NCBI GenBank assembly: GCA_021292105.1
Contig: CM037867.1
Coordinates: forward strand, 13,406,928-13,470,927
Reading direction: 5' to 3'
Source of the DNA: Anadara kagoshimensis
Lineage: Eukaryota; Mollusca; Bivalvia; Arcoida; Arcidae
DNA length: 64,000 nucleotides
Shown: one piece after another, positions 14,424 through 64,000 of the stretch
How positions within the stretch are numbered: position 1 is the stretch's first letter
Layout: each line of letters begins with the position of its first letter
Position numbers and translations under genes: made by a program
The notes under the pieces: generated by a model
The model's database searches: none
What the model was told of the DNA's origin: nothing
The model's input: only the letters and a program-made list of their open reading frames with translations

Positions 14424-15222
14424 GAGACATTGTTGTAGCTGATACGGAAAATCACAGGATAGAAATTTTCTCCAAAGATGGCTTCTTCAAATCAAATTTG
14501 GTTCTAAGGGATACAAAGTTGACCAATTAAATTACCCGATGTGCGTTTCGGTTACAAAAGACGACCACGTGGCAGTCACGGACAGTGTCAATTCCTGCGT
14601 CAAAGTGTTCACATTAGAAGGCCAACTTATTCAGGTTTTAGGATGTAGTGAAGTTTTTGATATCCCGTATGGATTAGGATTAAGTAGTGATAATTTCTTT
14701 GTTGTTACTGATATTTGTAAACACCGTATCGCTGTTTTAAATCCCGACGGTTCAACCGATCACGTGTTTGGCGAATACGGAAGTCAACCAAACGAGTTTG
14801 ACCATCCTTATTTTGTCACCGTTACTAGTGAAAAACAAATTGTTGTGACGGATTCCGGAAATAATTGTGTTAAAATGTTCACTTTCCAAGGGAAATTATT
14901 AAAAATGTTTTCCCAAAATGAATTTAAATTAGGTTCTGATGTTTACGTGTCATTACAAGGACTTTGTACGGATACGGATGGAAATATATTAATAATATGC
15001 AATAATTCTGTATATATTTTGACTAAAAACGGTAGATTATGGGAAATATTAACGCCAAAAGATGGAACTACCAGTCCAAAATGTCTGACTTACGTCACTT
15101 CCGGTCATTTAGTACTGACTCAGTACGATTTAGATGCTAGACACGAGGTTTGTCTGTTCAAGTATAACAAGGAAGATTATAAATCGCTCAATTCTACGCA
15201 ATTCTATGCAATTAATATATGA
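14424..15222 (+). CDS. NHL gene, propeller exon
   Basis: This exon codes for most of a six-bladed NHL propeller. Blade-defining phrases in order are DIVVADTENHRIEIF, HVAVTDSVNSCVKVF, FFVVTDICKHRIAVL, QIVVTDSGNNCVKMF, NILIICNNSVYIL and a last diverged blade ending EVCLFKY. The first phrase is in one frame and the other five lie in the frame open from ATG 14,539 to the stop, so the one-base disruption falls between blades one and two. Apart from that the exon is intact over 227 codons, so either the lesion is recent or it is an assembly error. Confidence 0.75.
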
Positions 15223-28175: not shown

Positions 28176-31100
28176 CTGAAAAAATAACGCATAAATATAC
28201 AGAGTAAATAAATCAAACACAAACATACAGGTCCATGTTCAAATCACATTAACTAAAAAGCAAAGTAATTTTTTGAAAACTGGTATACCAAGCAAAACGC
28301 TTGAACTTCCATAAGGGAAGTCTGGCCGGATGTGAAGAAAGGGTAAGCAGATCCTATTTTACAAGCTACAACCGCCACGTGTGAAATCAAGATTGAGAAT
28401 GAATTCAAAGGAACAATGGGACATCAAATATAAAAGTTTCCTGTTTGTGGTATGATGCAAAGAGGTATTGCGGTTGTTGTGATTTTATCCTACATAGACT
28501 GTTTTTTATAAAAAATAACACAATTTTGAACCTACGTTCTTAATAAAGTCGAGTTTTTTGTGAAAAGCGTATTTAGATATTGGAGATCAAATTGAGTTTA
28601 AGATTTTACTCGGATTGAGAACAATGTGTAAGTGGGACCAGAATTAAAGTTAAAATGCATTCCAAATACCTCAACATCTCTTGTTTATCTAATTGATGAC
28701 TACGAAATTTTAACCAAATAAAGTATATTCAATTTGAAACGACTATATGACCCCTGGACAGAATGGTAGAGGTATATGTAACTTTAATAGACTTTAATAT
28801 AGGTTTCTAGCCATATCAGCAAAAAATCATTAGCATCAAAGCATTGGTGTTGCCAATGAAATATTACAAAATATACATCTTGCATTACCTGTCCATTTGT
28901 ATGATAATTTGCAACCAATAGGTATGGCATAGTGAACAATGTAGCATACATAATCCCAGCAGTTGGAGAGAGTACAATGATAGCTATACGGTCCCTTGTT
29001 ACAGCCAGTATTATCATACCAACAGTGTACACCAACTGGCTGCAAATGTATACACGCTTAGCTTCTGAAAATAGAAAAAAAACAACATCAAATTTTGATT
29101 AATATCTTTATAAGTGTACAGTAAATTATTATTAAACCTGTTTTAATTTTTCAGCACTTGACGGTCGTCTCGGAATAAAGCACTTGACGGTCGTCTCGGA
29201 ATAAAGCACTTGACGGTCGTCTCGGAATAAAGCACTTGACGGTCGTCTCGGAATAAAGCACTTGACGGTCGTCTGGGAATAAAGCACTTGACGATCGTCT
29301 GGGAATAAAGCACTTGACGGTCGTCTGGGAATAAAGCACTTGACGGTCGTCTCGGAGTAAAGCACTTGACGGTCGTCTCGGAATAAAGCACTTGACGGTC
29401 GTCTCGGAATAAAGCACTTGACGGTCGTCTCGGAATAAAGCACTTGACGGTCGTCTCGGAGTAAAGCACTTGACGGTCGTCTCGGAATAAAGCACTTGAC
29501 GGTCGTCTCGGAATAAAGCACTTGACGGTCGTCTCGGAATAAAGCACTTGACGATCGTCTCGGAGTAAAGCACTTGACGGTCGTCTCGGAATAAAGCACT
29601 TGACGGTCGTCTCGGAATAAAGCACTTGACGGTCGTCTCGGAGTAAAGCACTTGACGGTCGTCTCGGAGTAAAGCACTTGACGGTCGTCTCGGAATAAAG
29701 CACTTGACGGTCGTCTCGGAATAAAGCACTTGACGGTCGTCTCGGAGTAAAGCACTTGACGGTCGTCTCGGAATAAAGCACTTGACGGTCGTCTCGGAAT
29801 AAATCACTTGACGGTCGTCTCGGAATAAAGCACTTGACGGTCGTCTCGGAATAAAATTGTTCATATCAGTAATGCTCAGACTGAAATTGTGAAAATCCAA
29901 ATATTTTTTAAGATGTCAAAAGAAAATTGGATTTATCAAAAAGTATTCATCTAAGAAACAGAAATAAAGTTTAAAACCTCATTTTAATGTTTTTTTATTA
30001 GTTTGACACTTCTCTTTTTGCCATAGATTTTTTAAAGTTCAAAAATTCATTTATTATATGTTTTTCTTTAAAAGCACTCCCTAATTTAGTGTCATTTTCT
30101 TTATAACACCAACACGTGACTAAACAAATGATGGCAATAAAATTGAGGTTTTGGTTTCAGTTTAACGTATCAATTATAAGAATATGTCAAAACTTGTAAT
30201 GTTTATTTATATGTTGTATCACGTTATTATTGTTTTGCTGAATTGCATTTTAATTAGCAATACAGTAAAACGTGTCTATTAAGGCCATCCAAGGGAACTA
30301 ATTAACGTGGCCTTTATGGGCAGGTGACCCGTATATACAGGTTAAAAAAGCATGAATAAAGAGCAAAGAGGATAAATTTTTACCGGCCATTATAAGCAGG
30401 TTGCCCTTATATAGAGGTGACCTTTAAAGCAGGTTTTTCTGAACATTTTACATGTGTGATGTTGTTAGGAAATACAAGTATGTAGAAACCAGTTCTGATT
30501 AATATTATACCTCAAATGCTAAGATTCTACGGATTAAAATTTCATAATTCTATGTTTTCTCGTAAAAACGACATCATTTGGAAAATGGGACATTTTCCCT
30601 AAACTAAGAGCATTGGGAAACTAGTCACCACCCGTGTAAAATCAACAGAATAAGAGTTATGATAAATTAAATCGGAATTTTGCTTCGCCGCAGAAAATAA
30701 AATATCGTCATTTCCCATATACCCCAGCAAAATGCTAATATTAATACTATTTTTCCCTTGTACTTCTCGTGGTTGAAAAAAAGATCACGTGACAAAATAT
30801 AAGATATATAAGGTATGCTACATGTTCATGATCTAATTTTGTAAATTTCGATAAGTTCCGGCACCTCTCTGTCGTGTCTATTAATTACACCTACAGTAGC
30901 CTAATGCTAATGAAAAGACAGTTTGCATATGTGGACACTGGTTGTATCAATTAATGCTAATCGACGTTGCTAACGCAACGGCGTCAAATTTTTCAGTGTA
31001 CAGTCCAGTCTGTCTTAAAGAGGTCTTTAACCTCTATATAGGGCCATCTGCTTAAGGTCAGTAGAATTGTACCCGATTGTTCTTTATTCATTTTATTTGA

Positions 31101-34100: not shown

Positions 34101-36872
34101 TTTGGATAACGAATTATTGAATGAATTCATGTCCAAATGATGCTTTAAGTGTCTATGAAAAGAACAACCGATATATTTGATTTTCTGATATAATCAGCGT
34201 GACCTTCATCAACAATTCAATATTACTGTTCTGGATGATTGACAGTTCCATGCTCTTACTGTGTCTGATCACTGCGGGTTTTCACAATAATTATAGTTCC
34301 CGTAAGAAAATACATTACAAATAATTCATTCATCATTTTTATAGAATACTTGTGCAGTACTTTTAGGAAAAATATTTTGTGCTTATAGTTATACGAAATG
34401 TATGGAACCCCTTTAGTACTACAGGCCCATACATTTTGAAATCGAGTTTTGAGGGCGGGACTTCGAAATCGTGCGAGAACAGGACTTTGAAATCGAGCGC
34501 AGTTTTGTAATTTGAGCGCAGAACTTTGAAATCGAAAGTACAGTTTTGAAACGGAACACAGGACTTTGCAATCGAGTGCAACGTTTTGAAATTGGTTGCA
34601 CGACCTAACTCACTAAGGGTTTTCACAAGTTATAATAGCCGTAATACATTACACATTATCACCAACGTCCATTCAACCATTTGTATAGAAAAAAAGTGCA
34701 ATTAAACTTTTTGTCGTGTTATTTATAGTATTGAAAAAGTACAGAACCCCTTTAGTACCATAGATGTTAATGGATCCTTGAGATAGTATTCAATTAGTGT
34801 CGCTAAAGATTTTTGAAAAACAATTAACGATACAACTATCACACCAGTAGCTTAGTTCGTACAGTATCCCTCTGTAGGGTGTTGGGTTCGAACACCGGTC
34901 GGGTTTGACCAAGACTTTAAAACAGACAGCCCTAGTGACTGTTCTTTCGCAAAGCACTTGCGGTTTAGAAATGAAAGGCACGAGGTTCTTCAGAACGGAT
35001 ATGCTAAAGAACTTTCCTTGTACATTGCCTTAAGAACACAACAAAGGTAACATTCTCTATTTATGGTGACTTCTCGATATTATCGAGTTTTTTTGACTGG
35101 GGCGTAAACATCTACTAACCAACCCAACCATTAAGAAAATATTAAAAAACATTTCTTTTATACTTACTGAATTTCTCGACGAGTGGTTCTATACATAGCG
35201 AATAAATAGCACAGGACAATGAATACAAAGACATTCCGAATGCTCCCATTCGTACTCCATCGTCGTAAAGAATGTGTTTTTCACTTCCGATGGGAGCTTT
35301 TGGATCTCCTCCATACACTGCCTGACCAACAAAATCCGTAAAATAGAGTGAATAACACACTAGGGACATCCAGCAAAATAAGTTCGTTATACAGAGGATT
35401 AGTAAAGATCTTGGCATTCTGATTATAGACATTAAATATGTTTTAAGTTCAACTTGTGTTAACACTGAGATGGAGGCTTGCTTAGCTAAACTATGACGCT
35501 TTGCCCGTTCCCTGACTGTTGATTGGTTAACGTGGTTATCACACTCGCTTTTTGTCGTGTTTTCGACATCGTTTTGCATTTTGATAACATTTATAGTCTC
35601 GTTGGTATTTTCTATGAAATTATTTTCCAAATCGTATCCTAGTTTCTTTTTCTCTAAATGTTCTAAATTTGCCACCCCATTTCTGTCACCGTTTCCATAA
35701 TCACATTGGAATTTTGTAACTTTCCCATAACTGTCTATACCTGTGTATGGGGAAGTTGTGGAAGACAGGGATTCGTGCATATTCTCTATTGTGCCATATC
35801 CGCTAGATGGCGCTGATGATTGCTCTTTAATGTCTTCTGCTTCGTCGTCACTTTCCTCATTTACAAACTTTTTATATTTCTTTTTTCCTTTCTTTTTCTT
35901 TCCCTTTTGCAGCAATTCGTTTGTTATGCCAGCCTCTTGTAGAGGAACCTCTTTAAAGCTTGTTATTGTCAGCGCAACAAAGAAGACAAACACAATTAAA
36001 ACAACGGTGAAGACGAGTCTTATATGACCTCCAAAAGCCTTCCCAAATCCCGTGTTATTCCAATCTATCCCGCCCATCAAGTAACCGACACTTCCGCCTA
36101 ACCCCGCCATTACTGTAAAGGAAGTAAGTCCCGCAGAGTGATCTTCAGGGGATATGACGTCAAGTAAATAGGCCCGGCATGGCGACTGTGCTGCGTCACA
36201 ACTCACGTCCAAAAGAGCTACTCCAAATATGGTTAATATTATTCCAGCAATGTGGTTGCCAGGTAACCGTATTGAGAATAAGGTATAACCATCTGTTTCG
36301 ATCTCTTGAACAATATCAGAAATGTTCTTTGTGACATTAAATAAGGTCGAATTTATTAATTCTACTATTGAGGTATCATTAAATAACTCAGAATTGTTAC
36401 TGAACACTGCGACAGGACCCTTGTCTCCAAATAACACTCCCAGCGCTTCTCCATTCGGAACCAGAAGCAGGCCAAGGATTATTCCGAATGACAGTAAAAC
36501 TATAAACGGTCTTCGTCTACCAAATTTAAGACTACACCTATCGCTCAACGAACCAAGAAAAGGTACCAGGAAAAAGCCTATTAAGGGACTAGCACACCAT
36601 ACTAATGTCATTAAACTAACTGGTACCCCTAATTTAAGTAATATTGGACTAACGAAAGCTGTCTCGGCAGCATAGCAAAGTTCGATCCCACAGACAGCTG
36701 CGCTGATCCGTACTAACTGTAACCGAGTTTTCCTCTTGGCAATATATGCATATTCCGTTCCTTGTTTTACTAATGTATTAATTCCATCACCAAGCGTCTG
36801 TACGTACGGTTGTGCGTGCTCGCTGACTTTCTTCAATGCTTGGATTGATGACGTCAAAAGTCCAATTGACAT
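27921..36872 (-). CDS. SLC45-family MFS sugar/proton transporter, three coding exons
   Basis: Coding exons 36,872-35,168, 29,064-28,889 and 28,175-27,921 join in phases 1 and 0 to 2,136 nt (711 codons plus stop). A 5' UTR part to 36,887 follows an acceptor AATTTCAG, so an upstream non-coding exon exists but was not found. Residues 55-80 (CGIELCYAAETAFVSPILLK) and DRCSLKFGRRRPF (about 111-123) are hallmarks of the SLC45 family (MATP and proton-associated sugar transporters). AAQSPCRAYLLD in TM5 and GIMYATLFTMPYLLV in exon 2 agree. An extracellular loop at about 155-190 has several N-glycosylation sites (NNS, NDT, NST, NVT, NIS). A lysine-rich cytoplasmic loop of about 150 residues separates the two six-helix halves. 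Length fits SLC45A1/A4 (about 750-770) better than A2 (530). Predicted role: proton-coupled sugar transport across a membrane; the substrate is inferred from the family. Confidence 0.93.
28215..28450 (+). repeat. Family C element in SLC45-type intron 2
   Basis: ACATACAGGTCCATGTTCAA, then GAAGTCTGGCCGGATG, then ACAAGCTACAACCGCCACG follow the family order, diverged. The rest of intron 2 (28,176-28,888) shows nothing else. Confidence 0.7.
28889..29064 (-). CDS. SLC45-type gene, second coding exon
   Basis: 176 bp, acceptor ATTTTCAG, donor CAG/GTAATG. Encodes AKRVYICSQLVYTVGMIIL and the helix GIMYATLFTMPYLLVANYH. The phase-1 junction with exon 1 creates KAKRVYI, the conserved post-loop motif of the family. 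Confidence 0.9.
29153..29854. repeat. Minisatellite, 27 copies of 26 bp
   Basis: Unit AGCACTTGACGGTCGTCTCG plus GAATAA, exactly 702 bp. Few variants: GGAGTAA in copies 8, 12, 16, 19, 20 and 23, CTGGGAATAA in 5-7, and GATCG in 6 and 16. The array lies in intron 1 of the SLC45-type gene. Since 26 is not a multiple of 3 and no frame of the minus strand meets a stop, three overlapping frames of more than 200 codons arise by chance. Confidence 0.97.
30261..30445 (-). mobile_element. Family B MITE
   Basis: TACAGTAAAACGTGTCTATT at one end and GGTGACCTTTAAAGCAGG near the other, with GTGGCCTTTATGGGCAGG inside. The right terminus is decayed. Confidence 0.8.
30999..31181 (+). mobile_element. Family B MITE
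   Basis: TACAGTCCAGTCTGTC to GACAGTTTGACTGTA, with CTACCTGCCCATAAAGGC inside. Inverted relative to the copy 550 bp upstream. Confidence 0.8.
31778..31965. mobile_element. Family L MITE
   Basis: CACTGACCTGTCAGCTTGAC at the left and its inverted counterpart AAGGTCAAGTTGACAGGTTA at the right, then ATGTTGGTTGCCTATAT. The same ends occur at 53,436-53,650. Confidence 0.7.
32047..32910. repeat. Degenerate satellite, period about 115 bp
   Basis: Units share AGACTTCAAACGT, TTCTTAGATCAAACAAATATT, AACAATAATAACAGAAATTT and TGCGTCATC. Six to seven copies are recognisable. A family C element (32,210-32,365) sits inside and separates the first unit from the rest. Confidence 0.7.
32210..32365 (-). repeat. 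Family C element inserted in satellite
   Basis: GGCAGATGTAGCTAGCTAAA, then AGGTGCTTACCCTTCCGAAG, then TTGTGATTTGGATATGG match the family, inverted. Confidence 0.8.
33425..33545 (+). repeat. Family J repeat
   Basis: GGTCATATGGCATTCTATAG, then ACCGGGTAGGCATCCCAAA, then CGAAACGAAGC; second copy of the repeat seen inverted at 22,681. Confidence 0.6.
33835..34145. repeat. Imperfect tandem duplication, about 175 bp
   Basis: Both halves contain AAATCTT, then GTAAGACAACTTCACTTC or GTAAGACGACTCCAATTC, then TCTAC, then TTGTTTGGATAAC (TTGTTGGATAAC), then ATTCATGT. Confidence 0.6.
34268..34767. repeat. Duplication of about 340 bp enclosing a short tandem array
   Basis: GGGTTTTCACAA, ATTATAGTTCCCGTAA, ATACATTACA, and CGGAACCCCTTTAGTAC-like blocks at 34,268-34,433 recur at 34,608-34,767. 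Between them, 34,436-34,605 is a degenerate array of a unit near 30 bp resembling GGACTTTGAAATCGAGCGCA. Minus-strand frames across it are repeat artefacts. Confidence 0.65.
34835..35130 (+). mobile_element. Family D tRNA-derived SINE
   Basis: TAGCTTAGTTCGTACAGT (box A), TGGGTTCGAACACC (box B), GTGACTGTTCTTTCGC, ending TTTGACTGGGGCGTAAACAT. It lies only about 40 bp inside the SLC45-type intron from the exon 1 donor. Confidence 0.85.
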
Positions 36873-36887: not shown

Positions 36888-37778
36888 CTGAAATTAAAAG
36901 TAAACTATTAAAAATAATATCATTTGATATTAGATTTTCTAAGATTAGTTTAGATCAAGTGGAAAAGTATCACTTTTCACTTTTTTAGTGTGTCCTTTTT
37001 ACGCTGACTTGCGGGTAGAGTATCTTAAGAGATACTACTGATCGATGCTAACGCAACTGTACGGCGTTTCTAGTCTGTTTGAAATTCATTCGCAGGCTAG
37101 GTACATTTCTGTAAAAAGCTACTAAATGAAGAAATACTGTAGACGTATTTATTTTCGCGGTAAACTTATTTTCGCTTATTTTGCGCGAAAACTAATACCA
37201 AGCGAATATTATGTAATGCTTATTGTGTTATCGTGTATATAACAAAAAACGCGAAAATTTAATGATGCGAATATGTCTAACTTTTCTTAACCGCGAAAAT
37301 TAAAACACGCGAAACTAAATACGTTTACAGTAACAGATAGTGTTATCACAGTCCATCCAATAATTTGAAAATAATTGACTAGACCAATACAGTCTTCTTC
37401 CTATATTATAATAACAATTATTATTGTTGTTGTTGTGATGATAACAAAAACAAACATGCAATCTTAATATTCATTTTAAAATCCTATGAGAGTATGCTTA
37501 TTGAATAAAATTAATTGAAATGAATCTACCTGATTTATATGCACCTGTCATCTTTTTGACCTGATTACAAAATTTCAAAATAACCTGTTATAAATATTGA
37601 CCAACTCTATGATTAAAGACCATCTGTCAATGTGTTTTAATTACTGTTAGCTTGATGCTTCAACTAAAACAAACCAGTTTAAAAAGACCATCTGTAAGAC
37701 AAGGTCATTTAGGATTATGTTTCAACAAAATTATTTTTTATGTAAAGACTATGTGCCTCTTTTTTTAAAACCAATTTT
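36888..37778. other. Upstream region of the SLC45-type gene with a family E MITE
   Basis: The gene's 5' UTR intron starts at 36,888. A family E MITE occupies 37,135-37,332. No upstream exon or core promoter could be identified in the remainder. Confidence 0.6.
37135..37332. mobile_element. Family E MITE
   Basis: TACTGTAGACGTATTTATTT at the left and AACTAAATACGTTTACAGTA at the right are inverted copies. Interior GCGCGAAAACTAATACC and AACGCGAAAATTTAATG match the 22,806 copy. Confidence 0.88.
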
Positions 37779-38813
37779 GAACCAATAATGATGACCAACT
37801 TATTTCTTGGAGTTCGTGGGTAGTCATTTTTATACAGTTCCCACTATGAACCAATAATGATGACCAACTTATTTCTTGGAGTTCGTGGGTAGTCATTTTT
37901 ATACAGTTCCCACTATGAACCAATAATGATGACCAACTTATTTCTTGGAGTTCGTGGGTAGTCATTTTTATACAGTTCCCACTATGAACCAATAATGATG
38001 ACCAACTTATTTCTTGGAGTTCGTGGGTAGACATTTTTATACAGTTCCCACTATGAACCAATAATGATGACCAACGTATTTCTTGGAGCTCGTGGGTAGT
38101 CATTTCTATACAGTTCCCACTATGAACCAATAATGATGACCAACTTATTTCTTGGAGTTCGTGGGTAGTCATTTTTATACAGTTCCCACTATGAACCAAT
38201 AATGATGACCAACTTATTTCTTGGAGTTCGTGGGTAGTCATTTTTATACAGTTCCCACTATGAACCAATAATGATGACCAACTTATATCTTGGAGCTCGT
38301 GGGTAGTCATTTTTATACAGTTCCCACTATGAACCAATAATGATGACCAACTTATTTCTTGGAGCTCGTGGGTAGTCATTTTTATACAGTTCCCACTATG
38401 AACCAATAATGATGACCAACTTATTTCTTGGAGTTCGTGGGTAGTCATTTTTATACAGTTCCCACTATGAACCAATAATGATGACCAACTTATTTCTTGG
38501 AGTTCGTGGGTAGTCATTTTTATACAGTTCCCACTATGAACCAATAATGATGACCAACTTATTTCTTGGAGTTCGTGGGTAGTCATTTTTATACAGTTCC
38601 CACTATGAACCAATAATGATGACCAACTTATTTCTTGGAGCTCGTGGGTAGTCATTTTTATACAGTTCCCACTATGAACCAATAATGATGACCAACTTAT
38701 TTCTTGGAGCTCGTGGGTAGTCATTTTTATACAGTTCCCACTATGAACCAATAATGATGACCAACTTATTTCTTGGAGCTCGTGGGTAGTCATTTTTATA
38801 CAGTTCCCTCTAT
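37779..38813. repeat. Satellite, 15 copies of 69 bp
   Basis: Unit begins GAACCAATAATGATGACCAA and ends ACAGTTCCCACTAT. Copies are nearly identical. The main variant, GAGTTCG versus GAGCTCG, occurs in both forms across the array; copies 4, 5 and 8 carry single private changes. Because 69 = 3 x 23, the minus strand stays open for 359 codons (23-residue unit SGNCIKMTTHELQEISWSS plus LLVH). It has no signal peptide and no recognised domain; coding is unlikely but not excluded. It lies 0.9 kb upstream of the transporter's first coding exon. Confidence 0.95.
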
Positions 38814-38924
38814 GTATACTACTAATTTCATAATTTTCAAACAATTAATTGTTGTTATTTATCTTTTAAATTATGCTCACAACCCTGAATAATTGTTGAA
38901 TGGTTACTTTAATTATCCTATTAC

Positions 38925-48662: not shown

Positions 48663-49209
48663 ATGGAGGAGTCACCTGGAGAAAGAATGTTAAATTCATT
48701 GTCAAATAGAATTTTAAAATTGGATGGCATTATTGAACGCCAAAGACATGGGCCAAGTGGTGACGTAGCTTTAAATATTCCGGACGACACACAGGACTTT
48801 ATAAATGGGATGAAAAATGAAAACACATCAAGAAAAACTGATGGCAACGTAAAAAAACTAAAAAAATGGCTAGAAACGAAAGGGGAACACAGAGACGTTT
48901 TTGAAATCCCAGCACCAGATTTAAATATATACTTGGCTCGATTTTTTATGACGATTAAACAGGATAATGGACAGGAATATGAGCCGGACACGCTCCGCTC
49001 ATTTCAAGGTTCATTTCAGCGATTTTTGCGCGATCATCATTATCCTATTGACATCATCAAGGACAAAGAATTCAGTCATAGTCGGGAAGTTTTGAGTTCG
49101 AAACAAAAGCAACTGAAGAAAATGGGATACGGGAATAAGAGAAGGAAATCACAGCCAATATCGGAGACGGATTTTGAAGTTATGATGGGCAAACAAGTCC
49201 TTGGTTTGG
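48663..49209 (+). CDS. Recombinase exon 1
   Basis: Codes for residues 1-182, the N-terminal DNA-binding-like part. ATG in AAAATGGAGG context. The donor G/GTAAGT at 49,210 is a perfect consensus. The minus-strand 118-codon frame is a shadow. Confidence 0.85.
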
Positions 49210-49771
49210 GTAAGTTTCTTCGTTCTTCTCAACCGTCCATTTGTATTTATCTTCTTGACCCTTTCTTGAACTACCTTCAAGTAAACAGAGCACCCGCTGG
49301 CGCACCTTTCAATAATGTAACCCACCAAAACGTTGCCTGTTTTGGTAAAACATAACCGGAGCACTTTTTGAACTCGCATGAGAATAAGTTAAATATCACC
49401 AAGTAACTGTTATTTTTAACAAGATTTATAAGCAAAGGTATCTTAAATCAGAGATGTATAAAACCCTGGTTTTATACATCTCTGCTTAAATGTAGTAATA
49501 TGATTAATTTGAGTTTTTTTCTAAACTTTTTTAGCAAACCCAGAAGCCCTCTTGAACACAATATATTTGAATAACTCCATGCATTTTGGTCTAAGGGGAC
49601 GACAGGAGCATATAAACATGTATTGGGGAGACGTTGAACAGAAAACCAACTCTAGTGGATGCAGATATTTGGAATTCAACGAAAGAGAAACCAAAACTAG
49701 AAATGGATGCAATGGTGAAACACGACCATTTCCACCAAAGATGTTTGAAAAGAAAGGTAAGAAAACTTATT

Positions 49772-49802
<31 letters not shown>

Positions 49803-50092
49803 TTTAATAAATAAATAAATAAATAATGAACCTAATAATTATATAGTTATATATGTTTTTTTCAACAGATGATCCCAACTGTCCTGTTAAAGCGTTTGAA
49901 GAGTACAAGAAACGTAGACCTGAGAGAATGAATGTCCCAGACGCAAGATTTTATTTACAAATAAACCGTAACAGAAAAGATAATGATCCAGTGTGGTATA
50001 AGTGTCAGCCATTAGGAAAGAATTACATTGGAGGAATGGTCAAAACCATGGCAGAAAAAGGTAAAATAAAAGATAAATTATCTGTTTTAAAT

Positions 50093-50136
<44 letters not shown>

Positions 50137-50651
50137 TTCATCTTTATCACTTATCCCATATTTCATTTTCAGCTCAGATTACAGATAAAAGGCTTACCAA
50201 CCACAGTGGCAGAAAGACAACCGTGACAAGATTACTTGACCAAGGATTCCAGGCAGCTGAAGTGATGTCTTTGACAGGACATAAAAATGTGCAAAGCATA
50301 AACAATTACAATACTGTTTCAGAAGCTAAACAACGGAAAATGTCTGAAACTTTAACTCTAGCCCCTCCAAGAAATGAAGCTTCAGCAACCACTAGTAACA
50401 CTGATCTAGATTTAACAAATAGCACTATAGTCGATTATGGTTATAATGATTCAGATTTAAACAATATCATAAATGAATGGAATACTGAACCTACAGACAC
50501 AAACCAAATAAGTGAACCCTCAGTAATTGACCTGCCTATCACTATAAATCAACAAGGAATTGCTGTTTCTCGCAAAACCTTGCCCTCACTTAATTTATTT
50601 ACAGGAGCTACTATAAATGGCAATATTTCTATCAATTTTAACAGCAAATAA
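48663..50651 (+). CDS. Crypton-type tyrosine recombinase, four exons
   Basis: Exons 48,663-49,209, 49,535-49,756, 49,869-50,060 and 50,173-50,651, all joined in phase 1 with canonical GT/AG borders, make 1,440 nt (479 codons plus stop). The order is N-terminal region with a basic patch GYGNKRRKSQ (about 155-164), then the catalytic domain. First arginine in FGLRGRQEH (R203), HSGR box H331-x-x-R334, histidine in TGHKNV (H357) and nucleophile tyrosine in INNYN (Y366). This is the complete R...HxxR...H...Y set of tyrosine recombinases. The layout fits Crypton transposases and their animal descendants (the domain related to KCTD1/ZMYM/QRICH1), which cut and join DNA through a covalent 3'-phosphotyrosine. 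It could be an active transposase, a recent relic or a domesticated host gene; the intact set and introns do not decide. Poly(A) signal follows at 50,665. The C-terminal 100 residues are Asn/Thr-rich and probably disordered. Confidence 0.85.
49449..49484. repeat. Perfect hairpin in recombinase intron 1
   Basis: CAGAGATGTATAAAACC (49,449-49,465) is the perfect inverse of 49,468-49,484, separated by 2 bp. Confidence 0.85.
49535..49756 (+). CDS. Recombinase exon 2
   Basis: Acceptor CTTTTTTAG, donor AAAG/GTAAG. Residues 183-256 with the first catalytic arginine. Confidence 0.85.
49869..50060 (+). CDS. Recombinase exon 3
   Basis: Acceptor TTTTTTCAACAG, donor AAAAG/GTAAAA. Residues 257-320 (DDPNCPVKAFEEYKKRRP). 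Flanking introns hold (AAAT)n at about 49,776-49,825 and (AAT)n at about 50,099-50,133. Confidence 0.85.
50173..50651 (+). CDS. Recombinase exon 4
   Basis: Acceptor CATTTTCAG. Residues 321-479, with NHSGRK, TGHKNV and NNYN; stop TAA. Confidence 0.88.
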
Positions 50652-57163: not shown

Positions 57164-57184
57164 TTTATTATTATAAACTTTATT
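57164..57184 (-). terminator. Possible poly(A) signals of the lectin gene
   Basis: AATAAA occurs twice on the minus strand (57,164-57,169 and 57,179-57,184), about 185-200 bp past the lectin stop codon. Confidence 0.4.
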
Positions 57185-57367: not shown

Positions 57368-57618
57368 TTAATAAAACGATTTTTCACAAATAAATTCTAT
57401 TTTATGAATAGTGCAACTAATATCATGTAAATAGTATGGACGTTTTCTCATCCATATAATTCCTATTGCTCCACATTTCTCGTCTCTTCCATAGGTTATT
57501 TTATCAGGTTGGTCCTCATCCCATACGTAGCTCTCTATCTCTTTTCCATTGATCCAAAGAAACTTTCGTAGTAAAGGGATATATCTTACACCAACTGAAA
57601 CCGCATCTTTGTCGTTTT
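57368..57618 (-). CDS. Lectin exon 4: second half of the lectin domain
   Basis: Acceptor ATATTTCAG. Residues 172-254 with LWINGKEI, QPD, KCGAIGI, HDISC and FICEK; stop TAA at 57,368-57,370. Confidence 0.9.
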
Positions 57619-60600
57619 CTGAAATATAAGTCATAACAAGAGACCATTGATTATAAAAAACCTCTAATCTTAATAGAATTTACCATGATTATGAAAAAGT
57701 ACCTTATGTGTATTAAAGGTACGATTCGAATAAATGACTTTATATGGCCAACATACAATTAAATTAAGATCTGCTTTAAACACTTTTTCAAAAATATCGC
57801 AATTATATCGGCTATATTTATAATTGATAAAATATCTTGGAAGGTTGAGTAAACTTTTTTTTATACAAAATTTCAATATTATTACTGAACTCTCTTGAAA
57901 CAGCTGTTATGGTGGTAGACTATGTACATCTATGTCATTTTACGGTCACTTTTATTATGATATTGTCAATATGCTGTTGCATCTTGTATCCTAATCAAAA
58001 ACAAACATACTAATTTATATCCGAATCACAATCCAGAAGCAAAGTAAAAACTTTGGAACTGACAAGTTAGGTAATACACGTAAACTTCCACCAGGGAAGT
58101 GAGGCCGGGTGCTCCGAAAGGGTAAGCACTTCCTGTTTAGCTAGCTACACCTGCCACGTGTGTAATCAAAATTGTGTGAAAGGAACATGGAACTATGAGA
58201 CATCAAATATATCAAGGGCAATCCTGGACACAGAGACATCAAACTTATCAACAATAATGTGATGACAACCATAAAACTTTTTGAGGGTGATGGTAAGCCT
58301 AAGCTTGCAATATTACCTGAGTCAACAATTTATTTTGCAAGCAGCCTACTTCGTTGTACAAAGTCCCTGTAGTGGGAAAAAGCTCTACCATAGCGTATTA
58401 TTTGGGAAACAAATACACCATAAGCAGGAGAAGCAGGAATATTGCTGCATAAAAAAGGAAAATTGACAATAGAAAAATTGAAGCCATCACGTTTGTCATA
58501 AAGTTTAAAATGTAGCCTTTCGTGTGCGTCATAACATAGAAACATCCGTTCACGTTTCTTACAGTTTCTGTATAGTTAATTCATCATTTTCTGTAATAAT
58601 AAAAAACAAGTTTGTTGCAAGAATTGAAAGCATGATAAGCTTTTATGCCGAAACACAAGTTCAAATATGTGTTAAGTAAATAAACATTGTAATTTGCTTT
58701 CTTTTTAAAAAAGTTTGAAATACTTGTCAAATTGTGGTATTTTTGGTTTTTCGTGAAGAAAGTTCTGGTACTTTCTCAAAATTGCAAAGCTAGGGGCTGG
58801 ATACCAAACTTATACCAATGGGGAGATGTTTACACAGAAAGTAACTAGTAACTCAAAATAGAAAATTTTATCGACACTATGGGTACGATTTTAAGAAGGA
58901 AACTTTATTAACAATCTGTAAAGTTCATAATTTCACTCACATTTTGAATTGTGAGGTACAAATAAATGAAATCAATACAAACTGCATTCGAATTGCAGCT
59001 TAAATTTGAAATTACCTGAACTTAAGATCTTTTCAATACGATCAAACTTCTTACGATTATCTAAAATTAGGAGTCTGCCACCCTGATCTCTGCAGAAATT
59101 GTTTGCCAATTTCCAAGTAACTTTGGAGTGGTATATCTTATAACAAATGTCTGCATATTCGTCGTACACGTAACCCACACTAATGCATTGATTTAAAGCT
59201 TTCTCTAAAAGAAAGAGAAATAAAAGGTTATGAATACCAGATCTAGAACAAGTTACAAATCATGTTCAACTTTCTGGACATAATTTTAAATCTTTATTTT
59301 GTCCGTCATGATCATCAAGAAGTCTTGAATTTAAGTCTTTTGCACCACATTTAACTAGCCATCATTTATCAATGCATTATAAAAGATAAAAATCATGAAA
59401 GAGGAAAATTATGAAAATCACAAAATAATAAAATTCTATCGATATAAATATTAATCTGTCCGCAGTGTTCAAATCACAATCCAAAAAGTGGAAGTGAAAT
59501 TATCTCCTGTTAATCTATCTAAAGCGTTTGGGTTTTGGACAACAGCCGAGATGTTATTTTCTGATGATATCTACGGCTTCATTTCCCTGGTGGAAGTTCA
59601 CGAATTTTACCTTACTTGTCAGTTTCAAAGTTTTTTACTTTGTTTCTGGATTGTGATTTGGACATGGGTTAGTAAGTTTGTTTTTGGATTTTACTAGCAA
59701 AAAAGCGGTTTTTCGTTTCCATTTCGATCCCGCATTCGGGCTAAACTTGTAATTTTGATCGCTCGGGGATAAGTGATTCCTTTAAAGTAAATAGCGCGTC
59801 AAAATGCTGCTGGAATATCGGAAAAAGTAATATATACTATTTGGAATTCCATCTGCATTGACTATATCACTGCAATATTCAAAAACGTAAAAATCAATTT
59901 TAATTAAATAAGTACTGTTGTGATTTCACTTCTGTTTGCATACCTTGCAGAGAGTATGATAAAGTCATTGAAAAATATATTAATTTGTCCAATACCGCTG
60001 ATATTTTCTACGTATAATTACCAATCAGGTTTAATTTTGCACCACTTGACAGTCATTTCGGAATAAAGTTCCTCACATGCAGTGCTCTGACCAAATTTGT
60101 AGAAATCGAAATAAGATTTTAAATAAAGAAAATTAAAAAAGACCAAAAGTTATTTAAACAAATTAACCTAAGGTAGTACTTCGAACGATTAAACATAGAT
60201 TTGTTTTAAATGTTATATTATTCAAATATATAAAAAGTGTAATGAAAAACAAAAAGTCTAGTTAATAACAGTTAGTAATTGCCTTAACGCTTTTTTTAAA
60301 TACAGTCCAATCTGCCTTAAAGGCCACCTCTATATAAAGGTCACCTGCTTATAAAGGCCAGTAGAATTTTATCCCTATTGTTCTTTATTCATATTATTCG
60401 AACCGTATATAAAGGCCACCTGCCCATAAAGACCACTTATACTCATTCCCTTGGGTGGCCTTTATAGACAGGTTTGACTGTATTAACTTAAAAGGTTAGA
60501 GGAAACCTTCAAACCCTTGCTATAAAATGGACGTTAGTATACGATCCATTTGTTGTAGCCAACTACATGCACTATTTAAATCACAACATGAATAATTATC

Positions 60601-62754
60601 TATATAGTGTGTATTGTTAGCTGCGGTCCCTTTCTGAAGAAGAGCTGCCGATTTGTTTTTTTTTAATTATAAAACATCCCTCAGTTTTAGTAATGATGTT
60701 TCTGTATCCACAATTACTTTGAATATATTTGACTTTGCATACTTCAATGTTTCGCATTCTCAATTTTGGTTACACAAATGGCGAGTGTATCTAGCTTACT
60801 AAGAGGTTCTTACTCTTCTTAACCACGCGGCCTCACGTCCCTGGTAGAACTTCACTTGTGTAGTTAAAAGTTTGCATTTGAACACGGAACGTCTCGATAT
60901 AAGTGAAATATTCTTGACTGAGACGTTAAACACCATTACTCAACTCATTTGAACATAGACTGGTATGTTTGTTTTTATTTTAAACATAGCTAAACTTGCA
61001 TTTATATAATTTGTTTTACTTACAAAGTAAGGGTTCATGATTTCTTTGTAAATACATAATTATATTTATGCACTTACCCCGCAAAACATTTTCGACCTCT
61101 TGTTTCAAGAATGATGAGTTTAGCTCTATAAATTGCAAAAAGATAAAAATAAATAAAATCATTTTTTCTAACCATGAAGTTTAATTGTAACAAAAAGGAC
61201 AGATATTTCTGATTTCAAAAAAATGAAGACATTGTCTAACATGCGCTAGAGGGTAGACGATTTCTTTATAAATATATAATATTATTTATACACTTAACCC
61301 GCAAAACATTTTTGACCTCTTGTTTCAATATTGATGAGTTTAGCTCTACAAATTACAAAAAAGCAAAAACAATAATTAAAATAATTTTTTCTGACCATGA
61401 AGTTTAATTGCAACACGTACCATTTTCTTTTCAAACGACAAAATTTCTGATTTCCAAAATAATGAAGAAATTATATAAAAAACGGTCTAAAATGAGGAGA
61501 TAATAACCCAGTTATTTAAAAGATTGTTATTCTTCGTATAAATTTAGTGAAATTAAGGAAAATAATTTAAAAAATATATATTTTATAACAAATCCCTTTA
61601 TATTATAAATCGCGGAGTTTCCGTATAAATTTAAGACTTCGTGATTTCAAATATATCCAGGATTTGTTTCGATACAGAAACATAATGCTTTAGAATATTG
61701 TGGTGACCTTTGACCTTTTTGAGGTCCTTAAACATAGTGTCTCGATATCTTCGAGTCAACAAGTTATTTATAAGTAGTTTTTTTTAATTTTAAGTTCCTG
61801 CTCTAGCATAGCGCATTAACTGTGAAACGAATACACTATAAGCAAAATAACTATATTGAAGATTTGAAATGGAAAGTCGAAAATTCAAAAAAAAATTGTC
61901 ATCACGTTTGTCAAATAGCTTGGAATGTAAAATGAGATTTCGACAAAAACTGTTTCTGTATATTTGATCACCTTATAAACCGATGTTTCCTTTTTCATTA
62001 TAAATAAACATATCATTTGGTACAATGGTCAATCATAATGCGCATAAAACATAAAGATGTGGAATTCAATTTTGACTTAAATTTCATTTCAAAATACTTC
62101 TATTAAATCACAATCACAAAAATTAAGTAAAATTTTGAAAACCGGCAAACTAAGTGTGCCGGGTTAACAGCTCTCTACCTATATGTCGAACAAAAATGAG
62201 ACGGTATGCACATCTGTTCTTGTACATATGTGTTGAATCTAAATTGAGAATGAAAGGAGCAAGGAGCTAGCTATGATACTTTAGATATATTATCTACTTA
62301 CTATAGTATCCTAATTGCTTTCTTTTTAAAATATTTGAATGCCAATAAAAACAAATAGGTGTATGTAAATAAAGTCAATTCTAAATGTAAATATTTCTTG
62401 GTAACTGATCATTACAGTTTATAACAGTTTTAATTTCACAGCACTAACTTGATGATTTTTAGCTTGGCGATACTTACCTATGTTCTCCATATCTTCATTG
62501 AAGCTGTTCCCTTTCATTTGCAACTGTTTGATTTGATGGTACATTACTGCTGACAAAGACACAAATACAATGCACACAGCACACAAAATAACTGTAATTA
62601 TGATGTTGACCTTCCATAATACTGCAACTTTATCTGACCGATTTTGCGGTTGTTGGTAATTCTGTTTGCTGGAAGTCTCGATTTTATTCGTATTGGATGT
62701 GGTAAGAGTGGTATAATGATCTTCCTCATTTATATGCGTGATTAACTCGGACAT
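57368..62754 (-). CDS. Type II transmembrane C-type lectin, four exons
   Basis: Exons 62,754-62,478, 61,125-61,078, 59,204-59,016 and 57,618-57,368, all joined in phase 1 with GT/AG borders, give 765 nt (254 codons plus stop). Residues 1-48 are a cytoplasmic tail with an acidic tyrosine motif EEDHYTTL (10-17). Residues 49-71 form one membrane helix. 75-108 is a short stalk, partly from the 48-bp exon 2. 115-249 is a long-form C-type lectin domain with six cysteines (C115, C129, C146, C220, C240, C249), a WKLANNFC motif and GGRLLIL. The sugar-binding site has QPD (208-210), the galactose-type motif, but the usual WND is LHD (235-237), so calcium binding is uncertain. There is no signal peptide, as expected for a type II protein. 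Likely a surface receptor on immune-type or epithelial cells; the ligand is unknown. Confidence 0.92.
57995..58600 (+). repeat. Family C element, most complete copy
   Basis: From AACAAACATACTAATTTATA through GGGAAGTGAGGCCGGGTGCT, GTGATGACAACCATAAAACT, TACTTCGTTGTACAAAGTCC and CACCATAAGCAGGAGAAGCA to the tail CATCACGTTTGTCATAAAG. It lies in lectin intron 3. No terminal inverted repeat, poly(A) tail or coding region; the class is undetermined. Confidence 0.85.
59016..59204 (-). CDS. Lectin exon 3: first half of the lectin domain
   Basis: 189 bp, acceptor TCTTTTAG, donor TCAG/GTAATT. Residues 109-171 with C115, C129, C146 and GGRLLIL. Confidence 0.9.
60301..60482 (+). mobile_element. Family B MITE, best-preserved copy
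   Basis: TACAGTCCAATCTGCC to GACAGGTTTGACTGTA, with AAAGGCCACCTCTATATAAA at one side and GGTGGCCTTTATAGACAGG at the other. Confidence 0.88.
60885..60950 (+). mobile_element. Family D SINE 3' end inside a family C element
   Basis: ACGTCTCGATATAAGTGAAA, then CTTGACTGAGACGTTAAACA, then CCATTACTCAACTCA is the 3' end only, sitting within a minus-strand family C copy (60,685-60,985). Severe 5' truncation. Confidence 0.8.
61078..61125 (-). CDS. Lectin exon 2: stalk
   Basis: 48 bp, acceptor TTTATAG, donor CGGG/GTAAGTG. Encodes ELNSSFLKQEVENVLR, a heptad-like stretch suited to a helical neck, with one potential N-glycosylation site (NSS). Present as a duplicate at 61,298-61,345. Confidence 0.8.
61298..61345 (-). 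pseudogene. Duplicated stalk exon with a dead splice donor
   Basis: This 48-bp copy of lectin exon 2 would encode ELNSSILKQEVKNVLR. It and its flanks are a tandem duplicate of 61,040-61,230. The acceptor TTTGTAG is intact, but the donor GTAAGTG of the other copy is TTAAGTG here. Using the GT one base earlier would shift the frame, so the exon is probably skipped. Confidence 0.75.
61645..62290 (+). repeat. Two diverged family C pieces in lectin intron 1
   Basis: About 61,645-61,945 is a 3' part (CTCCAGGATTTGTTTCGA-like, then GAAACGAATACACTATAAGC, then CATCACGTTTGTCAAATAGC). About 62,090-62,290 is a weak 5' part (AAATCACAATCACAAAAATT, then AAAACCGGCAAACTAAG). Confidence 0.6.
62478..62754 (-). 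CDS. Lectin exon 1: cytoplasmic tail, membrane helix, stalk start
   Basis: ATG at 62,754-62,752. The tail is rich in Thr, Asn and Gln, with the YTTL motif at residues 14-17. The helix is VNIIITVILCAVCIVFVSLS. Donor ATAG/GTAAGT. Confidence 0.9.
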
Positions 62755-64000
62755 TGTTAGTTAAACATATAACCGTCCATTCAATATTTTTAAAAATGCA
62801 AGAAATAATGCACGCATTACTTTGTAGTTGGCGATTGTAAAATATGCGTAGGTTTGCATTTTGTAAAGTCTCCTCCGCTTTTAATGCTAATTAGTTGTTC
62901 CTCTTAAATATGATTGGCTATAACAAAACCGCATTTTCAAGTTTAATTATTTCAAGAAATCGGCGATCTACTTAAACGCTCTTAAATAAAGTCTTTTTTG
63001 AACAACGTAGTGATTGTTTATTTTAATTTCAGTTAATTTCAGTTTCTCTTTAGCCCTTAATATTACTGTCCAATCAAGAATGAATGATATTTTCTTCCTA
63101 TTGTCCATTTAAGAAAATAGAGCATTGCTTCAAACTTATTTCAAAACCAGACATTCCTTTATGACTGTTTTTTTAAGAATAAACCATAGGAATTCTAACA
63201 TTTTACCAGGGTAGTAATGTATAATTTCTATGTTTTTGGTATTAAAATACAAACATATCGTTCCATTAAGAATTTAAAAATTCAGGCAAATCCAAAAAAT
63301 TGCTTTCCATTTCATGCAAGACGAATGTAGGTAGTGGCTTCCGTTTCGGAACATTGTGACTCGCATGCATGATAAAAGGTGGCGTGTTAAAATAATTTGC
63401 CTTTTCTTTTATTTTTGAATTTAGATATGGACATTTACTTTATTTTTATTATGCGCTGTGATCCCGATTATGAGTGACTTACTTGTAATTGACGTATCGC
63501 CGACCACGCTCAAAATGTTACGTCATATGACCGGATGCTTGATTTATACGCAAAAAGAATGAAAACTCGGCCTAAATAGCGCCATTTAATGACGTCACTG
63601 ACACTAGTACGTCATTCGTTGCCGTGACGCTGCTTTAGTACCGTGATGGCGGCAAGTGTCGGAACATTGTGGGCGTGGTCAGCGATACGTCAATTCATGT
63701 TTATAATCATTAGTCTTTATACATGTAATATATAAACGCGCGTGTGTGTATGTGTGTCACATTATACTCTATTTGCGTTTGCTTATATCACTGTTTACCG
63801 TTAATAATTATTATTAAAAGTTAACCTTTTTCTTTTTAATTTTTTAAGAAACAAAGAAGGAGACAATTTTAATTAAAAATTTTATTGCCTCCAATGTGAA
63901 TGGAACCTCTGGATGCCATCAAATACCAGTCCAGTGGTTGTATTTATTACTATACCTGTCTTCGTTAATTACCACTAAACGATCTTTTCGGAATAAAATC
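62755..64000. other. Upstream of the lectin gene; nothing recognised
   Basis: No clear TATA box within 100 bp of the lectin start. Several TGACGTCA-like words (for example GACGTCACTGAC near 63,592 and CGTCATATGACC near 63,524) cluster at 63,480-63,620 but may be chance. A GTGTGT tract is at about 63,743. Confidence 0.4.

Follow-up and report, generated by a model that had tools for sequence, protein, structure and literature searches.

A putative type II C-type lectin receptor with a hemITAM-like tail motif in the bivalve Anadara kagoshimensis

The minus strand of the window (the whole 64-kb stretch of Anadara kagoshimensis DNA analysed here) carries a three-exon gene whose product is predicted to be a single-pass type II C-type lectin receptor. 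In the reading proposed here, clustering of this receptor would be followed by phosphorylation of Tyr14 in its short cytoplasmic tail and by recruitment of Syk, and to this reading as a whole we assign a probability of about 0.5. The features on which it is based are collected in Table 1. Their central element is the tail motif EEDHYTTL, in which a run of three acidic residues precedes a YxxL sequence, and which is joined in the gene model, through one predicted membrane segment and a stalk, to what on its Pfam match is a C-type lectin-like domain (CTLD), the only one in the protein.

Table 1. Features of the lectin receptor gene and of its predicted product
Feature	Position	Strand	Basis or content
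Exon 1	62478..62754	-	Residues 1-92 and first base of codon 93; ORF list, splice contexts
Tri-acidic YxxL (hemITAM-like) motif EEDHYTTL, residues 10-17, Tyr14	62704..62727	-	Sequence
Predicted membrane segment, about residues 49-71	62542..62610	-	Hydropathy; ends set by eye
Second stalk-exon copy, probably decayed	61298..61345	-	Donor region GGGTTAAGT compared with GGGGTAAGT
Candidate stalk exon, 48 nt, phase 1-1, encoding ELNSSFLKQEVENVLR with an N-S-S sequon	61078..61125	-	Exon scan, splice contexts
Exon 2	59016..59204	-	First half of CTLD (C99, C113, C130)
Exon 3	57368..57618	-	Second half of CTLD (QPD 192-194, E202, C204, LHD 219-221, C224, C233); stop codon
AATAAA, likely poly(A) signal	57179..57184	-	About 185 nt past the stop codon; read by eye

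Gene structure, topology and lectin domain

Joining of the three exons gives a 238-residue protein that ends in a stop codon. All exon junctions are in phase 1 with GT-AG borders, and the exon 1 donor, ATAG/GTAAGT, matches the consensus. Exon 1, which ends at this donor, contains the cytoplasmic tail (residues 1-48), the membrane segment and the beginning of the stalk; the corresponding minus-strand open reading frame, 62754..62419, begins MSELITHINEEDHYTTL, and a longer reading from the same start gives MSELITHINEEDHYTTLTTSNTNK. An in-frame TAA is the third codon upstream of the ATG, and the next in-frame methionine is residue 71, past most of the membrane segment, so that M1 is the only in-frame ATG of exon 1 that yields both tail and anchor. 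Over its initial 150 nt exon 1 contains no YAG before the one at 62671, downstream of EEDHYTTL, which makes a splice acceptor inside exon 1 and upstream of the motif unlikely. From the upstream TAA, Met71 and the position of this YAG it follows that an anchored protein starting in exon 1 includes the motif.

Kyte-Doolittle hydropathy reaches its 19-residue maximum of 2.95 in the span beginning at residue 51, the top-scoring spans begin at residues 49-53, and spans scoring above 1.2 begin only at residues 40-60, which indicates one hydrophobic segment. The location of this single segment N-terminal to a disulphide-patterned CTLD suggests a type II orientation, the charges on its two flanks being about equal by hand count and not deciding the matter. 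The sequence-only reading had proposed a type II membrane lectin with its motif near the N-terminus, and hydropathy bears out that layout; the motif itself occupies residues 10-17 exactly as it had been placed, residue 10 starting at 62727 and residue 17 ending at 62704.

Pfam PF00059 (Lectin_C) matches residues 120-235 across exons 2 and 3 (E-value 7.9e-10; score 39.9 bits, the cut-off being 22.6), and six other Pfam rows for the protein fall under their cut-offs. There are six extracellular cysteines (99, 113, 130, 204, 224 and 233), together with the Ca2+/sugar-site motifs QPD at 192-194, E202 and H220-D221; of the galactose-type signature QPD plus WND, QPD is kept and WND is replaced by LHD. 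As judged from these residues the CTLD partly keeps a Ca2+/galactose-type site (QPD...E...HD), and a Ca2+-dependent, galactose-type ligand is plausible because the six cysteines, QPD, E202 and LHD are present. In a table of PMC12842671 two mussel lectins with QPD/FLD, M6 and M7, have asialofetuin entered against them and a 'Yes' in the column that seems to refer to Ca2+.

Intron 1 contains a tandem duplication of about 220 nt, at 61030-61415, within which the 48-nt candidate stalk exon occurs twice, once with a consensus donor and once with a changed one. The duplicated units, 61030-61152 and 61250-61372, are 85% identical over 123 nt at a spacing of 220, and for the stalk-exon copies the exon scan gave 89% identity over 100 nt. 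Under loose rules that scan listed 14 candidate segments, including pieces of exons 1 and 2. We picked 61125-61078 among them because of its splice sites and frame and because it resembles the end of exon 1; for this reason the stalk exon is a candidate only. It is flanked by the acceptor TTTATAG and the donor GGGGTAAGT, and its inclusion would stay in frame, giving a 254-residue form with a longer stalk in which N-S-S at residue 95 is the only extracellular N-glycosylation sequon. This segment is possibly a cassette (optional) exon. Dectin-1 has long and short isoforms, which a facultative stalk exon would resemble. In the second copy the remaining GT would not, on a hand reading, join in frame. 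By hand count the two 48-nt copies differ at three bases in two codons, and since both of these codons change the amino acid, no purifying selection is visible in the copies. The stalk has no cysteine, so a dimer disulphide-linked through it is not expected; CLEC-2 is likewise described as a non-disulphide dimer (PMC3819593).

A tblastn comparison of the 238-residue protein with the 64-kb window revealed no second lectin gene, the gene's own three exons being all that fell below E 1 among the matches listed. A motif scan of the window, judged by eye, gave no clear further CTLD exon, though a strongly divergent one could escape such a scan, and scans of viral and prokaryote contigs confirmed no relatives, as expected for an animal gene. 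Elsewhere in the window, 48663-50651 (+) holds two open reading frames, one with a QRICH1-type domain (E 6.7e-8) and the other with a weak phage integrase C-terminal match (E 0.0068, below the curated cut-off); we take this region to be, perhaps, a tyrosine-recombinase (Crypton-like) element. A 576-residue frame at 35142-36872 (-) matches the Major Facilitator Superfamily (E 3.1e-12) and is perhaps an SLC45-like sugar transporter, and a 227-residue frame at 14539-15222 (+) has NHL repeats (E 2.8e-15) and is possibly part of a TRIM/NHL-type gene. Two very uniform tandem arrays, at 29153-29855 (27 x 26 nt, 97% matches) and 37778-38814 (15 x 69 nt, 98%), each leave one or more reading frames open; Pfam matches in the 69-nt array are likely spurious, no single stretch passing. 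At the window edge, 63880-64000 (-), an open stretch is followed by a stop codon and AATAAA, and by eye might be the terminal exon of the gene next door.

The tail motif and its possible uses

The short tail presents, in EEDHYTTL, three acidic residues directly ahead of xYxxL, and as the hemITAM is described in the relevant parts of two reviews (PMC3819593, PMC11624271), namely as a tri-acidic run with YxxL, the predicted tail fits the description. It departs from the strict consensus DGYxxL, since the tail reads DHYTTL, with D at -2 and His, not Gly, at -1. The hemITAM receptors themselves match DGYxxL variably (PMC3819593), and His at -1 therefore lowers, but does not exclude, membership of the class. 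A full ITAM was rejected because the tail has only two tyrosines, at 14 and 33, the second of which reads YQQP. This second sequence (residues 33-36; 62647-62658, minus strand) is a YxxP form, a type favoured by Crk-type SH2 domains. The L, V, I or S of an ITIM stands two residues before the tyrosine. That position before Tyr14 is D, which is outside the residue set given in PMC3819593, and an ITIM was also rejected. A literature search found no paper for the literal motif strings.

The sequence-only reading had conceded that so short a motif could arise by chance. When the 48-residue tail was shuffled 500,000 times, with Met1 fixed, YxxL appeared in 12% and YxxPhi in 30%, [DE]{2}x{1,2}Yxx[LI] in 0.65%, and the strict form [DE]{3}xYxxL in 0.017% (1.7e-4), frequencies that are not clean p-values because the pattern was fixed after the sequence was seen. 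Under an average protein composition the expectation for the strict pattern is 2.1e-4. The 119,836 residues obtained by translating the window in six frames contain 507 matches to YxxL and a single strict match, EEDHYTTL itself. The rarity lies in the acidic triplet and not in YxxL: in this tail a tri-acidic YxxL is improbable by chance, while YxxL or YxxPhi alone is not.

In favour of the Syk reading are a motif that is both exact and rare, a constrained M1 and a confirmed CTLD, and reports in reviews of Syk-coupled hemITAM lectins in oyster make such signalling plausible for this lectin; by analogy, the Syk reading of the tail appears reasonable. In the mechanism proposed, the CTLD would bind a glycan on microbes or on self, probably in a Ca2+-dependent and galactose-type manner, and clustering by the ligand would draw together the tails of neighbouring chains. 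A Src-family or Syk-type kinase would phosphorylate Tyr14, and a pair of half-motifs modified in this way would span the tandem SH2 domains of Syk in this animal; Syk would then drive ERK/NF-kB output and uptake, as in the reviews on oyster CgCLec-HTM. In CLEC-2 the phosphorylated half-motifs of paired tails are described as engaging the two SH2 domains of Syk, and the tri-acidic run is reported to be crucial for Syk signalling (PMC3819593); a single Syk-like gene is said to exist in invertebrates (PMC10253181). Against the Syk reading stand His at -1 and the placing of the tyrosine at 14, not 7. Arg at -1 in NKp80 lowers phosphorylation and, with Glu at -2, lowers Syk recruitment too (PMC3819593). 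Among the receptors of the same review Dectin-1 is the only one with Tyr away from position 7. It also counts against the Syk reading that a YxxL can be read as an endocytic signal and often turns up by chance, and so does the stalk without a cysteine. On the favourable side, that review describes hemITAMs as lying at a consistent distance from the membrane, and Tyr14 is about 35 residues from the predicted membrane segment.

The alternative that survives best, though itself unlikely, is that the lectin is endocytic or adhesive and uses YTTL mainly for clathrin/AP-2 sorting, as a YxxPhi signal; its output would be uptake and not Syk signalling. YTTL fits the YxxPhi consensus, of which the asialoglycoprotein receptor tail is an example among sorting tails, and a QPD-type site that is partly retained points to a lectin of the classical sugar-binding kind. 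The tail motif of tetherin is reported to serve both sorting and hemITAM functions (PMC4161388), and CLEC9A to signal via Syk yet divert cargo rather than activate NF-kB (PMC11624271). A YxxPhi signal, however, requires no acidic triplet, and it is the tri-acidic run that is the rare part of the motif (1.7e-4, against 0.30 for YxxPhi). Endocytic use of YTTL is equally simple, and can coexist with Syk signalling.

It is less probable again that the lectin is a real receptor in which EEDHYTTL has no role, the motif having arisen by chance in a disordered tail rich in Thr, Asn and Gln. The motif is short and was chosen after the sequence had been read, and the expanded lectin repertoires described for bivalve genomes (PMC10140915) offer many tails in which one might fit. 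Against this, the strict pattern occurs just once among the 119,836 six-frame residues, and it does so within the N-terminal tail of a membrane lectin, close to where vertebrate receptors have it.

ATG-initiated open reading frames of at least 92 codons are expected by chance 0.12 times per 8 kb of strand (first-order Markov simulation, 3,000 runs), so the length of the exon 1 frame alone is no proof of coding, and the coding case is judged to rest on how frames, splice sites, anchor and CTLD fit together. This chance expectation, and the apparent decay of one stalk-exon copy, are the points in favour of a wrong gene model, in which exon 1 is not spliced to the CTLD exons, or of a decayed locus, but either is very improbable given that three of three exons are open, with phase 1 GT-AG junctions and a consensus GTAAGT donor on exon 1, and that all six CTLD cysteines are retained with AATAAA downstream.

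Comparison with other hemITAM receptors

Syk-coupled hemITAM lectins have already been reported in molluscs, in oyster, according to reviews, and the Anadara gene looks like another one; with the oyster lectins in print, the surprise is limited. The primary reports on oyster CgCLec-HTM and CgCLec-TM1 reportedly appeared in J Immunol, in 2019 (doi 10.4049/jimmunol.1900238) and 2021 (doi 10.4049/jimmunol.2100007) respectively. CgCLec-HTM is described as binding LPS and bacteria and as signalling via its hemITAM, Syk, ERK and Rel (PMC13027682, PMC12842671). Like it, the Anadara protein would be a membrane C-type lectin with a single CTLD and a hemITAM in the cytoplasmic tail. However, CgCLec-HTM is listed with QPS/WHD, as against QPD/LHD in the Anadara lectin, and its membrane segment is placed C-terminally, whereas that of the Anadara lectin is N-terminal and predicted type II (PMC12842671); binding and Syk data are reported for the oyster protein. 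For CgCLec-TM1 a hemITAM, Syk association and ERK-GSK3beta-IL-17 activation are described in PMC13027682, and the passage on it in PMC9316650 gives ERK-GSK3beta-IL-17 without mention of a hemITAM; it too is a membrane C-type lectin.

A type II layout is already known in bivalves, because CfLec-2 and CgCLEC-TM2 are described, like the Anadara lectin, with a single CTLD and an N-terminal membrane segment (PMC12842671). CgCLEC-TM2 is reported there to have a role in haemocytes and an effect on IL-17, but has EFG/FVN entered where the Anadara lectin has QPD/LHD, and in that review's account of the two proteins a hemITAM goes unmentioned, whereas the Anadara tail has the hemITAM-like motif. The combination of a type II layout with an N-terminal hemITAM was not found in the parts of the reviews that were covered, and it is possible that it distinguishes the Anadara lectin from CgCLec-HTM. 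Botryllus FcoR and Hydractinia Alr are also invertebrate receptors with hemITAM/ITIM-type tail motifs, although the FcoR are described as type I immunoglobulin-superfamily allorecognition receptors and not as lectins (PMC12065747).

The predicted protein resembles Dectin-1, CLEC-2, DNGR-1 and NKp80/NKp65 in its type II topology, short tail, acidic YxxL near the N-terminus and single CTLD. Its CTLD is encoded by two exons, and the exon layout of vertebrate lectins differs from that of the Anadara gene. Among the best 60 of 90 matches to solved structures, the closest are Ly75, PLA2R and the mannose receptors (1.3e-10 to 5e-7, several domains summed), followed by a single mannose-receptor CTLD (6e-6), aggrecan (6.2e-5) and CD69 (2.7e-4), with CLEC-2 at 0.0018 and NKp80 (KLRF1) at 0.0058; neither Dectin-1/CLEC7A nor DNGR-1/CLEC9A has a row by name among these 60. 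The single-domain matches, at about 19-29 bits, discriminate weakly and differ too little for a firm placement of the domain. The Dectin-1 cluster is described as consisting of group V CTLDs without typical Ca2+/sugar motifs (PMC11624271), whereas the Anadara CTLD keeps QPD, E202 and D221, and in sequence it stands no nearer to group V than to other CTLDs. Common descent with the vertebrate hemITAM lectins, which the sequence-only reading had offered beside convergence, gains no support from the structure matches, the Ca2+-site motif or the exon layout, and was rejected.

The lectin may function like Dectin-1 or CLEC-2; nothing places it in that family. It is tempting to suggest, if only tentatively and with the odds against it, that the full layout of Dectin-1 and CLEC-2 was gained independently here, as a type II protein with an N-terminal tri-acidic hemITAM, an optional glycosylated stalk exon and a CTLD in which much of a Ca2+/galactose-type site is kept. 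If that is true, a classical sugar-binding lectin would signal via Syk within one chain. If the tail does recruit Syk, then the type II hemITAM lectin layout would have arisen outside the vertebrates, perhaps more than once, and this animal would sense glycans with a single chain whose stalk is possibly switchable.
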